Positions 6,595 through 12,910 of a stretch of DNA of 64,000 nucleotides are shown here, in pieces; the first letter of the stretch is position 1; every line of letters starts with the position of its first letter. Under the pieces are notes generated by a model, which saw only the letters and a program-made list of their open reading frames with translations, was not told where the DNA came from and made no database searches. The DNA is taken from assembly GCF_009600605.1 (NCBI RefSeq), contig NZ_VWNA01000001.1:124001-188000 (forward strand), read 5' to 3'. The position numbers and the translations under genes were made by a program. Source of the stretch: Segnochrobactrum spirostomi (lineage in GTDB: Bacteria > Pseudomonadota > Alphaproteobacteria > Rhizobiales > Segnochrobactraceae).

Positions 6595-7554
6595 GAGGGC
6601 GGCGAGCGCGGCGCGGATCACCTCCGTGCCGGCCCCCGGCTTGTGGGATTCGACGGTGAGGATCTGCCGCCAGCGCCGCGCGCCGGGCCGGCCGGCGAAG
6701 AGGCCGAGGATGTGGCGCGTCATCGCCTGGAGCGGCACGCCCTCGCCGAGCCTCGCCTCGGCATAGGCGAGGAAGTCCTCCACCGCCGCGAAAACGTCGG
6801 TGTCCGCCTCGGCGCCGTAGAAGCGGCGGTCGACGGCGGCGAGCAGCCCCGGATTCTGATAGGCCGCGCGACCGAGCATCACGCCGTCGAGTTCGGCGGC
6901 GAGCGCCTCCGCCGTGTCGAGATCGGCGATGCCGCCGTTGATGCCGATGAAGAGATCGGGCCGCCGCGCCTTGAGCCGGCGCACCCGGTCATAATCGAGC
7001 GGCGGGATGGTGCGGTTCTCCTTGGGGCTCAGCCCCTTGAGCCAGGCTTTTCGAGCATGGACCCAGACCGCGTCGGTGCCGGCGGCCGCGACCGCCTCGA
7101 CGAGCGCATCGAGCGCCGCTTCCGGGTCCTGGTCGTCGATGCCGATCCGGCACTTGACGGTCACCGGCACCTCGACCGCCGCCTTCATCGCCGCGACGCA
7201 GTCGGCGACGAGGGCGGGCTCGGCCATCAGGCAGGCGCCGAAGCGGCCGTCCTGCACCCGGTCGGAGGGGCAGCCGCAATTGAGGTTGATCTCGTCGTAG
7301 CCCCAATCCGCCGCGATCCGCGCGGCCTCGGCCAGCGCCTTCGGCTCGCTGCCGCCGAGCTGCAGTGCGACCGGATGCTCGCTCTGCGAAAAGCCGAGCA
7401 GCCTCTCCCGCGGCCCATGAATGACCGCCTGGGCCGTGACCATCTCCGTATAGAGCAGCGCCCGACGCGTCAGCAGCCGGTGGAACACCCGGCAATGCCG
7501 GTCCGTCCACTCCATCATCGGCGCGACGGAAAATCGGTGCGCGGGGTAAGGCAT
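6544..7554 (-). CDS. dusA: tRNA-dihydrouridine(20/20a) synthase DusA
   Basis: FMN enzyme that reduces uridine 20/20a in the tRNA D-loop. 336 residues from the ATG at 7554 (MPYPAHRFSVAPMMEWTDRH). Motifs: VAPMMEWTD for FMN binding, NLNCGCPSDRVQDGRFGACLM with the catalytic cysteine near residue 95, and KCRIGID. The stop (TAG, 6546-6544) lies inside the end of the convergent protease gene. Its promoter must lie just downstream of the tracrRNA terminator at 7663, so the CRISPR locus was inserted or grew right at its 5' edge. Confidence 0.95.
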   Translation of the reverse strand: MPYPAHRFSVAPMMEWTDRHCRVFHRLLTRRALLYTEMVTAQAVIHGPRERLLGFSQSEHPVALQLGGSEPKALAEAARIAADWGYDEINLNCGCPSDRVQDGRFGACLMAEPALVADCVAAMKAAVEVPVTVKCRIGIDDQDPEAALDALVEAVAAAGTDAVWVHARKAWLKGLSPKENRTIPPLDYDRVRRLKARRPDLFIGINGGIADLDTAEALAAELDGVMLGRAAYQNPGLLAAVDRRFYGAEADTDVFAAVEDFLAYAEARLGEGVPLQAMTRHILGLFAGRPGARRWRQILTVESHKPGAGTEVIRAALAALSARGEGEFVAGDGVAA

Positions 7555-7662
7555 GGCCGCTGAAAGTCTCTCGGTGGGGGATCGCGGTGCGGCGACATCC
7601 CTTAGACGGCGCCACCGATGCTCGTCGAGGCGCCCCTTCAATCCATCCGGCAGAGCCGGAAC

Positions 7663-7688
7663 AAAAAAGGCGGCGCCGGAGCGCCGCC
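7663..7688 (-). terminator. Intrinsic terminator of tracrRNA
   Basis: On the minus strand GGCGGCGC, loop TCCG, GCGCCGCC, then TTTTTT (the plus strand shows AAAAAA at 7663-7668 and the stem arms at 7669-7676 and 7681-7688). Eight G-C pairs with a U tract is a textbook rho-independent signal. It also forms the 3' hairpin normal for tracrRNAs and shields dusA from tracrRNA transcription. Confidence 0.88.
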
Positions 7689-7740
7689 CTTATCTGGTGC
7701 GATCGAGCGCTTGTTAACCGCCGGACCACGATCTCTGTTC
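7663..7740 (-). ncRNA. tracrRNA of the type II-C CRISPR system
   Basis: Predicted from sequence, about 78 nt, minus strand. The plus strand at 7723-7737 reads GGACCACGATCTCTG, identical to the crRNA-sense repeat core, so the minus-strand RNA is a true anti-repeat. Pairing extends through 7718-7722 with one G.U wobble and through part of GTT at 7713-7715. The anti-repeat is followed by a short GCG-CGC hairpin region (7699-7711) and then an intrinsic terminator (7663-7688) with a six-U tract. A promoter sits immediately upstream (7746-7773), giving a start at about 7738-7740. In type II systems tracrRNA pairs with each crRNA repeat and is needed for Cas9 loading. Exact ends are inferred. Confidence 0.85.
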
Positions 7741-7745
7741 GAATA

Positions 7746-7773
7746 AAAATAAGCGAGGCGCCGCTGCCGTCAA
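7746..7773 (-). promoter_or_regulatory. Promoter of tracrRNA
   Basis: On the minus strand TTGACG (7773-7768), 16 nt, TATTTT (7751-7746). This is 5 of 6 and 4 of 6 matches to the sigma-70-type boxes, unusually good for this GC-rich window. It places the start six to eight bases downstream, at the first base of the anti-repeat. Confidence 0.7.
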
Positions 7774-7849
7774 GAGCGTCGTAGCCGAGCGCGATCGTCG
7801 ATACGCGGTGACGCCTAGGGCATTGCCCGAAACAGACGGGTCGCCCTAA

Positions 7850-7866
7850 CCTCCCATAAGGGGAGG
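7850..7866 (+). promoter_or_regulatory. Hairpin covering the cas9 ribosome-binding site
   Basis: CCTCCC (7850-7855), loop ATAAG, GGGAGG (7861-7866): a perfect six-pair hairpin whose right arm is the Shine-Dalgarno sequence of cas9. It could hold cas9 translation low. It lies 4 nt before the ATG at 7871 and 7 nt before the adjacent in-frame ATG at 7874; the latter spacing is more usual. Confidence 0.6.
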
Positions 7867-7870
7867 CTCC

Positions 7871-10800
7871 ATGATGCTACGACTTTACCGCGAAACCTGT
7901 CGTTTCGCCCTCGATGTCGGAACCCACTCGATCGGCTGGTGCGTGCTGCGGCTCGGCCGGAACGGCGAGCCCGACCAGATCCTCGGCCTCGGCACGCGCG
8001 TCTTTTCCGATGGGCGGGAGGCGAAGTCGAACGCGTCCCTCGCCATCGCGCGGCGCGCCGCGCGCGCCATGAGGCGACGGCGCGATCGCTTTCTGCGCCG
8101 CCGCGGGGCCCTGATCCGCGCGCTCAGCGAGGCGGGCCTTTTCCCGTCTGATCCCGCCGACCGAAAGGCGCTCGAAAAACTCGACCCTTACGGCCTGCGG
8201 GCGAAAGCCTTGGACGGCCCCCTCGCCCCGCACGAGATCGGTCGCGCCTTCTTCCACCTCAACCAGCGCCGCGGCTTCCGGTCCAACCGCAAGACCGACC
8301 GGCGGGACGACCAGGAGGCCGGCAAGATCGCCGTCGGCGTCGACCGGCTGCGCGCCGCCATTGCCGAGAGCGGCGCGCACCCTCGGCGAATTCCTGCATT
8401 GGCGCCGCCAGACGGCGCCCGATCCGGCGCGGCCCGAGAAGCACGCGCCCGTCGCGAGCGTGCGCACCCGGCTCCGCCCCGCAACCGCCGACGGCGGGCG
8501 CGGCGCCGAATACGAGTTCTATCCGAGCCGCGATCTCATCGAGGACGAATTTCAGCACCTCTTCGAGGCCCAGGCGGCCTATCACCCGGAGCTGATGACC
8601 GAGGCGGTGCGGGAAAAGCTGCACGAGATCGTATTCTTTCAGCGCCCCTTGCGTGCGCCGCCGGTCGGGCGATGCACGCTCGAGCCGAGCGAGGAGCGTC
8701 TCCCCAAGGCACACCCCCTGTTCCAACGCCGTCGGCTTTTCGAGGACGTCAATGCGCTGCGGGTCATCGCCCCGGACGGCTTCGTGCGCCCCCTCGACCG
8801 CGCGGAGCGCGATCTCGCCGTCCTGAAGCTTCAGGACAAGCGGAAGGTCTCGTTCGAGTCGCTGCGCAAGAGCCTGTGGCTGGCGCCCGGCACACGCTTT
8901 CGCCAGGAGAGCCAAAGTCGCACCGACATCGCCGGCGATGTGATTCGGGCCCAGTTTGCGGACAAGAAGCGGTTTGGCCCCCGGTGGACGACCCTCTCGC
9001 CGGACACCCAATGGGCGATCATCGCGCGGCTGCGCGACGAAGAGGACGAGGAAACCCTCATCGCCTGGCTCGTCGACGCCTGGGCGCTCACCGTGGATCA
9101 GGCCAAGGCCGTGGCCCGTATCGAGCTCCCCGTCGGCTTCGGCCGCTTCGGCCCGACGGCGACGACGGCTCTGATCGAGGAGCTCGAGGCCGACGTCGTC
9201 GTCTACAGCGAGGCCGCAGCGAGGGCGGGCTACCACCACAGCGATTTCCGCTCAGACGACGGCGCCGTCCGCGGTGATGGAGAGCCGCCCGCCCTGCCCT
9301 ATTACGGCGTGCCCCTGGCGCGTCACATCATGCCCGGCACCGGCGACCCGGCGGACGCGGAGGATGTCCGCATCGGCCGCGTCACCAACCCGACCGTCCA
9401 CATCGCCCTCAACCAGATCCGGCGAGTGATCAACCGGCTGATCCGCAGCTTCGGCCTGCCGAAGGACATCGCCGTCGAACTCGCCCGCGATCTCAAATTC
9501 ACCGAGGAGCGGAAGCGCGAGATCAACGCCGAGAACGACCGCAACCGCCGGGCCGCCGAACGGCGCTCCGAAAAGCTCCGCGAGCTCGGCCAGCCGGACA
9601 CCGGCGCCAACCGGGCGATGCTGAAATTGTGGGAAGAGCTCGGCGGCGGCGACGTGATCGACCGGCGCTGCGTCTATTCGGGCCGGCAGATCTCGGCAAG
9701 CATGCTGTTCGACGGCTCGGTGGAGGTCGATCACATCCTGCCGTTCTCGGCGACGCTCGACGATTCCAAGGACAATCTGGTGCTCGTCCTGCGCGAGGCG
9801 AACCGGCTCAAGCGCAAACGCTCGCCCTATGAAGCCCGGCACGACCTCGAGGCCCACTTCGGACCGGACGCCTCGTGGGACGCGATCGCCGCGCGCGCCG
9901 CGAAATTGCCGCCGGGCAAACGCCGCCGCTTCGAGCCCGACGCGCTGGAGACGTTCGAGGCGGAAGGCGGGTTCGCGGCGCGCCAACTCGTCGACACCCA
10001 ATATATCTCGCGCCTTGCGGCGGAATATCTCGGCACCCTCTATCCCGAGAGAGGGGAAGGATCGAACCATGTCTGGGTTCTGCCGGGGCGTCTCACGGAG
10101 TTGATCCGCCGCAAGCTCGGTCTCAACGGCCTGCTTCCCGACGACAATATCGGCGGCGGCGCCTTGCAGGAAAAGAACCGGCTGGACCACCGGCATCACG
10201 CCATCGACGCCTTCGTGATCGGGATCACCGACCGCGCCATGCTGAACCGGATCGCCCGGGACAGCGGCCGCGACGGCGCCGAGGGCCGCGAACGGGTCAT
10301 CGTATCGGACCCGTGGCCCGGCTTCCGCGAGGACCTTTCCTCAGCCCTCGCGCGCACGATCGCCAGCCACCGCCCCGACCACGGCACGACCTCCAAGGCC
10401 GGCTTGCCGAACGGGCGCGATCAGACCGCGGGCCGGCTGCACAACGATACCGCTTACGGCCTCACCGGTCGCGTCCGCGACAACGGTGTCCCGATCGTCG
10501 TCCATCGCATTCCGATCACCAGCATCGAGCCGTCGCACCTCGGCGACGATCCCGATCGGGGCGTTTGCGATCCGGACCTCCGCGAGGCCTTGCGCGCCTT
10601 CACGCTGGAGACCGACCCTAAAGCCTTCCCCGAGAGGCTGCGCCGCTTCGGCGAGTTGGGGCCGCTGCAGTTCCACGGCATCCGCCGGGTCCGGATCGTC
10701 GAGCCGCTGAAGGTCATCCCGATCCGCGACCGCGAGGGGCGGCCCTACAAGGCCTACAAGGGGGACAGCAACGATCGCTATGACGTGTGGGAGGGACCGG

Positions 10801-11183
10801 ACGGACGCTGGCAGGCGGAAGCGGTCTCGATGTTCGAGGCGCACCAGCCGGGCCGGGTTTCGCCGGTCCGCGCCGCCTGCCCGACCGCCCGAAAGGTGCT
10901 TTCGCTCCACCGCGACGACATCGTGGCTCTCGAGATCGACGGTGAGCGGCGGCTCTACCGGGTGGTGAAGTTCTCCGACAAGCAGATCACCCTCGCCCCG
11001 CCCAACGAAGGCGGCCGGCTCAAGGCGCGTGACGGCGATCCGAACGATCCGTTCCGCTACCTCTACGTCTCCGCCTCGTCACTGAAGGCGTCCAAGGCGC
11101 GGCAGGTGCGGGTGGACGAACTCGGGCGCGTGCTCGATCCCGGCTTCCCCGCACGCAAGACGAAGCGGCGAACGAGACGTTGA
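7871..11183 (+). CDS. cas9: Type II-C Cas9 nuclease, reading frame broken near 8378
   Basis: RNA-guided DNA endonuclease. Joined across the frame break it is about 1,104 residues, the size of compact II-C Cas9 proteins. RuvC-I: ALDVGTHSIGW with Asp15. Arginine-rich bridge helix: about 57-80. RuvC-II: PKDIAVELARDLKF, Glu near 537. HNH: EVDHILPFSATLDDSKDNLVL, His near 622. RuvC-III: HHAIDAF, Asp near 780. All catalytic residues are intact. The N-terminal frame (169 residues) stops making sense at GSGCG-rich sequence 8375-8378; the rest continues in the +1 frame from ARTLGEFLHWRR to the TGA at 11183. Two missing bases in the GCGCGC run, or one extra base, would explain it. As written, only fragments are made. 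cas1 follows 7 bp after the stop. Confidence 0.9.
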
Positions 11184-11190
11184 GGCGGCT

Positions 11191-12141
11191 GTGGAGCGGA
11201 TCGTCGACATCGCCACCGACGGGCGGCACCTGTCGGTCCATCGCGGGTTCCTCGTCGTCTCGGAAGGGCGGCAGGAGGTCGGCCGCGTCGCGCTCGACGA
11301 TGTCGCAGCCGTCATCGTCCACGCCCACGGCGTCACCTGGACGACGAACCTCGTCGTGGCGCTCGCCGAGCGCGGATCCGTCCTCGTCGTATGCGGGGCG
11401 AACCACGCCCCGGTCGCGATCTGCCTGCCGATCGAGGGGCACCACGCTCAGAACGCCCATTACCGGGCGCAATGGGAGGCCGGACGCCCGCTTTCGAAGC
11501 AGCTCTGGCGACGCGTCGTCATCGCCAAGATTCAATGGCAGGCCGCCGTGCTCGAAGCCCACGGCCGGGATGCGGCGGCGTTCGGCATGCTGGTACGCCG
11601 GGTCGGATCAGGCGACCCGGAGAATGTCGAAGCCCAGGCAGCACGGCGCTATTGGCCGCTCCTCATGGGGAGCGCGTTCAGGCGCGATCGCGCGGCAGAA
11701 GGCCTCAACGGCCTGCTGAACTACGGCTATACGATCCTTCGAGCCATGGTCTCGCGCGCGATCGTGGCGGCGGGTCTTCACCCGTCGATCGGTATCCACC
11801 ACGCCAATCGCGGAAACGCATTCGCGCTCGCCGACGATCTCGTCGAGCCGTTCCGGCCTCTGGTCGATTCGCTTTCGTTGCGGTTGGCCGAGCGCGGAAT
11901 CGTCGCCCTCACGCCCGACGCGAAGCGCGCTTTCGCCGGCCTTACCGCCCTCGACCTGCCGTCCGAGCGCGGCACGACCCCGGTTTACGTCGCCGCCCAG
12001 AGGCTCGCCCAATCCCTTGCCGACTGTTTCGAGAGCGGTCGGGCAGCCGATCTCGCGCTGCCGGCCACCCCGTCGCCCCTGGAACTCGCCGGGTTGGACG
12101 CCTTGTTGATCGATCCACCCCCCTTGGAGCGGACGACATGA
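11191..12141 (+). CDS. cas1: CRISPR-associated integrase Cas1 (type II)
   Basis: Metal-dependent integrase that, with Cas2, inserts new spacers. 316 residues from the GTG at 11191, seven bases after the cas9 stop. The C-terminal helical domain has the family signatures EGLNGLLNYGYTILRAMVSRA (catalytic Glu) and GIHHANRGNAFALADDLVEPFRPLVD (His and acidic residues), so the metal site looks complete. The N-terminal beta domain is normal. Translation is probably coupled with cas9. The stop is 13 bp before the ATG of cas2. Confidence 0.95.
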   Translation: MERIVDIATDGRHLSVHRGFLVVSEGRQEVGRVALDDVAAVIVHAHGVTWTTNLVVALAERGSVLVVCGANHAPVAICLPIEGHHAQNAHYRAQWEAGRPLSKQLWRRVVIAKIQWQAAVLEAHGRDAAAFGMLVRRVGSGDPENVEAQAARRYWPLLMGSAFRRDRAAEGLNGLLNYGYTILRAMVSRAIVAAGLHPSIGIHHANRGNAFALADDLVEPFRPLVDSLSLRLAERGIVALTPDAKRAFAGLTALDLPSERGTTPVYVAAQRLAQSLADCFESGRAADLALPATPSPLELAGLDALLIDPPPLERTT

Positions 12142-12154
12142 AAGGCGACCGAGC

Positions 12155-12910
12155 ATGAGGGCCGAGAAGAGGGCGGGCTCTCGGCGGGAGATCACGGCCG
12201 ACACCGCGATACCGACGCAACTCAGCGGATACCGTCTGATGTGGATCTTCGTGATGTTCGATCTTCCGGTGGACACCCAGGCGCATCAGCGCGCCGCGAC
12301 GAAGTTCCGCGAATTTCTCTTGGATCAAGGCTTCGAAAAGAGCCAGTTCTCCGTGTACGCTCGCTTCTGCAACGGCAAGGAGCAGTTCGAGACATATATC
12401 AGGCGGGTCGGGGCGAACCTTCCCGAACAAGGAGAGGTTCACGTTCTGAGCTTCACGGACCGGCAATATGAAAACATCATCCGTTTTTCAGGCCAGCGCA
12501 GGCGCAAAGCGCTGCTTTCACAACGCGTTACGCCACGATCGAGGATAGCCGTTCAGAGATCGTGGTCCAGCGGCAACGTAGTCCCGACCTACAACGTGCT
12601 CGTGAAGAGGATAGCCGTTCAGAGATCGTGGTCCAGCGGCAACGGCGCTGGGGCTCAACGATGGCGACAAGGCAGGATAGCCGTTCAGAGATCGTGGTCC
12701 AGCGGCAACTGCGTGGCTCTATCGGTTCTGCATCGATCAAGGATAGCCGTTCAGAGATCGTGGTCCAGCGGCAACCGCTCGTCGCCGGCCTGCGATCGCC
12801 CTATCAGGATAGCCGTTCAGAGATCGTGGTCCAGCGGCAACAAGCGTCGGGCGGTCATCGAGATTGGCGAAAGGATAGCCGTTCAGAGATCGTGGTCCAG
12901 CGCAGCGTGA
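12155..12910 (+). CDS. cas2: Cas2 whose frame has no stop before the CRISPR array
   Basis: Structural partner of Cas1 in spacer integration. The recognisable Cas2 fold starts at about residue 23 (SGYRLMWIFVMFDLPVDT, with the conserved Asp of FDLPV) and runs through QFSVYARFCNGKEQFETYI and LSFTDRQYENIIRFSGQ to about residue 120. No stop follows. The frame enters the first repeat exactly on a codon boundary at 12542 and continues through all six repeats to TGA 12908-12910, giving 251 residues. Each repeat codes RIAVQRSWSSGN and each 30-nt spacer ten more residues, so the tail is five 22-residue units plus an end. Usual II-C Cas2 is about 100-110 residues. Either the original stop was lost when the array abutted the gene, or a base change or indel removed it. 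Confidence 0.9.
   Translation: MRAEKRAGSRREITADTAIPTQLSGYRLMWIFVMFDLPVDTQAHQRAATKFREFLLDQGFEKSQFSVYARFCNGKEQFETYIRRVGANLPEQGEVHVLSFTDRQYENIIRFSGQRRRKALLSQRVTPRSRIAVQRSWSSGNVVPTYNVLVKRIAVQRSWSSGNGAGAQRWRQGRIAVQRSWSSGNCVALSVLHRSRIAVQRSWSSGNRSSPACDRPIRIAVQRSWSSGNKRRAVIEIGERIAVQRSWSSAA
12542..12907 (-). CRISPR. Type II-C CRISPR array, six 36-nt repeats and five 30-nt spacers
   Basis: Repeats begin at 12542, 12608, 12674, 12740, 12806 and 12872; spacers are 12578-12607, 12644-12673, 12710-12739, 12776-12805 and 12842-12871. Repeats 1-5 are identical. Repeat 6 departs from consensus after about 29 bases (at 12901). The crRNA sense is the minus strand, starting GTTGCCGCTGG, because only that orientation pairs with the minus-strand tracrRNA. 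In this sense every repeat ends GGCTATCCT, with TATCCT resembling a -10 box. A start 6-7 bases into the spacer would leave a guide of about 24 nt, as known for Neisseria-type II-C arrays. crRNA transcription is convergent with cas2. No spacer matches another part of this window that I could see. Confidence 0.97.

Follow-up and report, generated by a model that had tools for sequence, protein, structure and literature searches.

The window, a 64,000-nt stretch of Segnochrobactrum spirostomi contig NZ_VWNA01000001.1 (positions 124,001 to 188,000), very probably carries the tracrRNA gene of a type II-C CRISPR-Cas9 locus with the layout cas9-cas1-cas2-array, which would specify an RNA of 75-77 nt. 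This identification was reached by computation on sequence, pairing, covariation, position and conservation. The tracrRNA is real, complete and ordinary, one more of a known kind. The gene occupies positions 7773-7663 of the minus strand, opposite to cas9. It opens with TTGACG and TATTTT, set 16 nt apart; 8 nt further on comes the 25-nt anti-repeat, and after that a short hairpin, a linker and a terminator. A first-pass annotation of this DNA had described a complete tracrRNA gene opposite to cas9, with a promoter whose start falls at the anti-repeat, one small nexus hairpin and a strong terminator, and each of these parts was recovered. The features of the locus are as follows.

7746-7773, minus strand: predicted tracrRNA promoter, with -35 TTGACG (7773-7768), 16-nt spacer and -10 TATTTT (7751-7746); sigma-70-like match, and spacing in relatives
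7713-7737, minus strand: anti-repeat, 25 nt; all 24 nucleotides at the 5' end of the repeat paired, with a single bulged U
7699-7710, minus strand: nexus hairpin, 3-bp GCG/CGC stem and 6-nt loop; stem conserved, with two-sided changes, in 31 of 31 aligned copies
7692-7698, minus strand: conserved linker ACCAGAT between nexus and terminator (alignments A1 and A5)
7663-7691, minus strand: intrinsic terminator, 11-pair stem (7691-7666), UCCG (UNCG-type) loop and T run; terminator prediction and covariation
7871-8377, plus strand: cas9 N-terminal part, RuvC-I motif at 7913; TIGR01865, 116.7 bits, and tblastn with an intact relative
8373-11183, plus strand: remainder of cas9 in another frame, RuvC-II at 9468, HNH at 9723 and RuvC-III at 10194; profile search and tblastn
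11191-12141, plus strand: cas1, type II; TIGR03639, 231.5 bits
12155-12508, plus strand: cas2 (TIGR01573), frame without a stop before the array; profile search
about 12542-12906: CRISPR array of six 36-nt repeats and 30-nt spacers; crRNAs predicted from sequence to be read on the minus strand

The promoter at 7773-7746 was the sole sigma-70-like match in 7500-8000 (mean of 0.1 in shuffles), and its predicted transcript start at 7739-7738 immediately precedes the first anti-repeat nucleotide at 7737. The anti-repeat sits 134 nt from the cas9 start, which places the tracrRNA beside cas9, and it is followed by both a nexus-like hairpin and a terminator hairpin, as in a tracrRNA. When the tracrRNA was folded alone the anti-repeat partly paired with the nexus region, a result that counts against our reading. 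At the gathering score Rfam reported only a tRNA in the whole window; the Rfam library does not score this group of tracrRNAs.

The pairing of the anti-repeat with the CRISPR repeats connects the element to the array. The motif GGACCACGATCTCTG lies at 7723-7737 on the plus strand and recurs exactly, on the other strand, in all six array repeats, the one at 12872-12906 being degenerate at its outer end. Within the window there were seven matches to GGACCACGATCTCTG with two or fewer mismatches, against 0.21 expected, and elsewhere in the whole genome only two isolated sites were found, each with one mismatch. The first-pass annotation had noted this 15-nt identity, which held; the full anti-repeat is longer, however, at 25 nt (7737-7713). 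Nucleotides 1-24 from the 5' end of the repeat all pair with it, leaving one extra, bulged U on the tracrRNA side. A co-fold of the 24 nt of repeat with the tracrRNA reached -70.9 kcal/mol, whereas 300 shuffled repeats gave a mean of -43.8 (sd 2.2), and it yielded the expected dual RNA of repeat duplex, 3-bp nexus and terminator. The match had also been taken to set the crRNA polarity of the locus, and repeats in crRNA orientation were indeed found on the tracrRNA strand in all 24 loci checked; the array is thus predicted to be read opposite to the cas genes.

Relatives were collected in several steps. The C-terminal Cas9 piece, used as query, gave four loci in named genomes; among 199 related genomes it had matches in 23, one of them the window's own. 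A first screen gave 25 loci, of which 16, the window among them, share GTTAACAAG at the end of the anti-repeat. These 16 make up alignment A1, from which a covariance model was built with the window's own tracrRNA included; the omitted loci were L011, L012, L025, L048, L051, L054, L057, L059 and L060, and in L011 (Acidobacteriota) the anti-repeat is of a different type. A covariance search for relatives, as the annotation had proposed, found the same RNA at both levels: of 397 genomes from the order, 34 had a match scoring at least 47 bits, and of 385 from the class, 24 had one with an E-value of 1e-7 or better, the window's genome being counted in both. Order-level scores below 47 bits showed a gap down to 36 bits, followed by a tail of weak matches. 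The window's genome gave a single strong match, at 91.2 bits.

Presence of tracrRNA and cas9 in the same 397 genomes was tabulated by hand. We found cas9 in 39 genomes and both genes in 31, and 30 of the 34 genomes with a match show the window's arrangement, with the tracrRNA directly upstream of cas9 and on the other strand. In genome G073 the tracrRNA is on a separate contig. Two named plasmid records also carry the tracrRNA upstream of cas9. Eight of the 39 cas9 genomes had no strong tracrRNA match, which counts against our reading; three of them (G010, G067 and G094) have only weak matches of 23-29 bits, beside cas9, and for the remaining five no tracrRNA match was listed beside cas9.

Compensatory change was examined in the repeat:anti-repeat duplex at 20 of 36 loci (19 distinct rows), leaving out five whose anti-repeat carries an indel (L045, L047, L053, L108 and L114) and 11 for which no array of their own was available. 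Across these loci 94.3% of cells were paired and 14 of the 24 pairs had changed on both sides. None of 500 shuffles was as high as the observed covariation, and sliding the partner destroyed the signal. Anti-repeats fitted the repeat of their own locus better than those of other loci: on average 22.7 of the 24 pairs formed with the own repeat and 19.3 with the others, a result equalled in none of 5000 permutations. For the nexus and the terminator we used 31 of the 36 loci, omitting L052, L053, L055, L113 and L114; in this alignment, which was fitted to the structure, 100% of nexus cells and 97.6% of terminator cells were paired. Two of five summary measures for these hairpins (both-side-changed pairs and further pair types) were not above shuffles.

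The window RNA measures 75 nt from the start of the anti-repeat to the end of the T run and about 77 nt from the predicted start, slightly below the earlier figure of about 78 nt. The same annotation had put just over 20 nt between anti-repeat and terminator; this is correct from the full anti-repeat (7712-7692, 21 nt), whereas from the 15-nt core the distance is 31 nt. Its view that the RNA lies at the short end did not survive comparison with relatives. Among 59 aligned copies the median was 76 nt, with 49 copies at 70-80 nt and ten at 86-94 nt, and what had been called very short is therefore the rule for the group. The window tracrRNA is not unusually short but has a common length for its family. 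Similar sizes appear in excerpts of published work (PMC7708072, PMC10281378). Nor was a need for special guide design supported, since 75 nt is usual in the family and alphaproteobacterial II-C RNAs of this size have been published. The tracrRNAs of 86-94 nt occur at L052, L053 and L055 and at class-level loci such as L121 and L123, some with an additional hairpin; in at least three longer tracrRNAs the extra hairpin lies between nexus and terminator.

By analogy with known II-C systems, the gene may work as follows. A sigma-70-type promoter divergent from cas9 would start the 75-77-nt RNA at the anti-repeat. In each crRNA, nucleotides 1-24 of the repeat would pair with the anti-repeat, leaving one U bulged. 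The resulting duplex would be trimmed by RNase III, and Cas9 would bind it together with the small nexus and the terminator hairpin. Transcription, RNase III processing and Cas9 binding are all presumed here from those known systems.

The cas genes follow a type II-C layout, with cas9, cas1 and cas2 consecutive and then the array, and with neither csn2 nor cas4 among those neighbouring open reading frames that were scanned. The cas9 gene switches reading frame at 8373-8377, and all four catalytic motifs are present but split over the two frames; intact relatives have open cas9 frames of about 1,060-1,170 aa. Around the switch, 19 amino-acid-level motifs on both sides are otherwise intact, in that none of the four catalytic ones is missing. 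The split frame leaves a functional Cas9 partner putative, which counts against our main reading. In cas2 the C-terminal tail and stop common to six of six relatives are missing, and the frame runs into the array. Compared with L098, from an intact close relative whose repeat and nexus are nearly identical to those of the window, the window seems to lack about 75 nt between cas2 and the first repeat (12508-12541).

The damage to cas9 and cas2 may be real mutation or assembly error. Taken together, the cas9 frame change and the loss of the cas2 tail indicate that the CRISPR-Cas system may be decaying, and there is somewhat less than an even chance that the tracrRNA gene is a relic, still readable in a strain whose CRISPR-Cas locus is dead and outliving its cas9. 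Such cases exist among the relatives, where three of 34 genomes have the tracrRNA without a full cas9: two have it beside an N-terminal cas9 remnant and one has no cas9 in 9.5 kb. Against decay, promoter, anti-repeat, nexus and terminator are all intact in the window, its match of 91.2 bits is the best of all genomes searched, though to a model built with it, and the cas9 frame change could be an assembly error. A relic would be compatible with the identification of the element as a tracrRNA gene. At L104 (G107) and L111 (G394) the tracrRNA is head-to-head with the truncated start of cas9, and at L101 (G226) it has no cas9 in the 9.5 kb fetched; in these three loci the tracrRNA genes have outlived cas9.

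Two other explanations would alter the identity or the extent of the RNA. The element lies upstream of a dusA-like gene (ORF 7641-6544) on the same strand, and might be only the terminator or leader of that gene, with a stray repeat for an anti-repeat. We consider this highly improbable: covariation ties the 25-nt anti-repeat to the repeat of its own locus, the RNA accompanies cas9 in 30 of 34 genomes, and between it and the dusA-like gene stands a strong terminator. Scarcely better is the prospect of a longer functional tracrRNA, produced by read-through or from a different start, as in the type II-A long form. Start and end are predictions and the sequence permits alternative starts, but the terminator co-varies and the distance from promoter to anti-repeat is identical, at 36 nt, in the window and five relatives; the DfCas9 products of 72-83 nt reported in excerpts of PMC7708072 also argue for the short form.

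The tracrRNA gene and its surroundings resemble those of characterised II-C systems, as far as excerpts of the respective papers describe them. The locus of DfCas9 (Defluviimonas sp. 20V17, II-C) likewise has cas9-cas1-cas2, a tracrRNA upstream of the cas genes and an array read in the opposite direction (PMC7708072). Its tracrRNA products of 72-83 nt and its crRNAs with 24 nt of repeat match the prediction for the window (PMC7708072). DfCas9 is expressed and was shown to cleave, whereas the window's cas9 is split between frames; the likeness is by description, not letter by letter (PMC7708072). EHCas9 and SdoCas9 (Sulfitobacter donghicola) belong to II-C clade IX and are alphaproteobacterial like the window (PMC10281378). 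They have a tracrRNA gene of about 100 bp upstream of cas9, with promoter and terminator, a likeness that again rests on description and not on direction or letters (PMC10281378). For EHCas9 a working guide was designed with SdoCas9 as the reference; its tracrRNA part is a 73-nt fragment that has two stem-loops (PMC10281378). On plasmid P2 of Pseudosulfitobacter pseudonitzschiae (CP069018.1, locus L140) a 68.8-bit match lies next to cas9, on its upstream side and on the other strand. The Cas9 of this plasmid is about 42% identical to that of the window. The II-C tracrRNA of Campylobacter jejuni is similarly compact, with forms of about 74 and 62 nt, but belongs to another sequence family (PMC3656092). 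In excerpted text, the position of the tracrRNA within the locus varies between II-C groups (PMC3936727), and Gasiunas et al. describe clade V guides as the shortest, with two hairpins only (PMC7606464). A sequence-letter search did not find the letters of the invariant GTTAACAAGC core in papers.

The promoter itself may bear on how such genes arise. TTGAC lies exactly 36 nt upstream of the anti-repeat in the window and in L042, L043, L098, L099 and L103, and the same six have a TANNNT box 16 nt past the -35 hexamer; TTGAC or TTGAT occurs 36-46 nt upstream in 20 of 36 loci. In L042, L101, L103 and L043 the tracrRNA promoter can be aligned to the CRISPR repeat, taken in crRNA orientation, over 22-33 nt. 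In a promoter-versus-repeat test four of 27 loci gave P≤0.001, L101 and L103 being compared with the repeat of L102 because the stretches fetched for them contained no array. In a stricter self test only two of 59 loci reached P = 0.001 (L042 and L103), with 0.002 for L101 and 0.025 for L043. The single repeat of genome G262, its own, fits the L103 promoter at 26 of 30 positions. Decayed repeats in crRNA orientation, directly upstream of the tracrRNA and coinciding with the promoter, were seen at L042 (4776-4867), L043 (4894-4960), L101 and L103, and L042 has a second, shorter one alongside the first. L118 (G693), from another order, has a possible repeat-derived promoter (P = 0.0035, self test); the stretch fetched for it held no array.

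In C. jejuni, according to excerpts of PMC3656092, promoters lie inside the repeats, whose 3' ends contain -10 boxes; of 24 repeats from the present loci, 19 have TANNNT at the end. These observations and the repeat alignments make it fair to propose that the promoters of L042, L101, L103 and L043 were once repeats. The same proposal was unsupported for the window (P = 0.086 against its own repeat, P = 0.43 in the self test), whose promoter could be inferred to come from a repeat only through the shared spacing. We tentatively suggest, as a scenario that is rather less probable than not, that the clade's tracrRNA gene is a repurposed crRNA transcription unit made of two inverted CRISPR repeats, the first becoming the promoter and the second, on the opposite strand, the anti-repeat. 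It is likewise doubtful, if conceivable, that TGGACC of the repeat-borne crRNA promoter was sharpened to TTGACC, in which case four relatives would still show the origin and the window would keep only the spacing. In the excerpts of literature searched, no statement that a tracrRNA promoter derives from a repeat was found.

Within a widespread group of alphaproteobacterial II-C systems, tracrRNAs of about 75 nt with a single hairpin are normal rather than exceptional. The covariance model and the guide layout, a 24-nt repeat duplex with a bulged U, a nexus and a UNCG terminator, can be reused to annotate such loci. If confirmed, the decayed-repeat promoters of the four relatives would provide a concrete route from an array to a tracrRNA gene together with its promoter.
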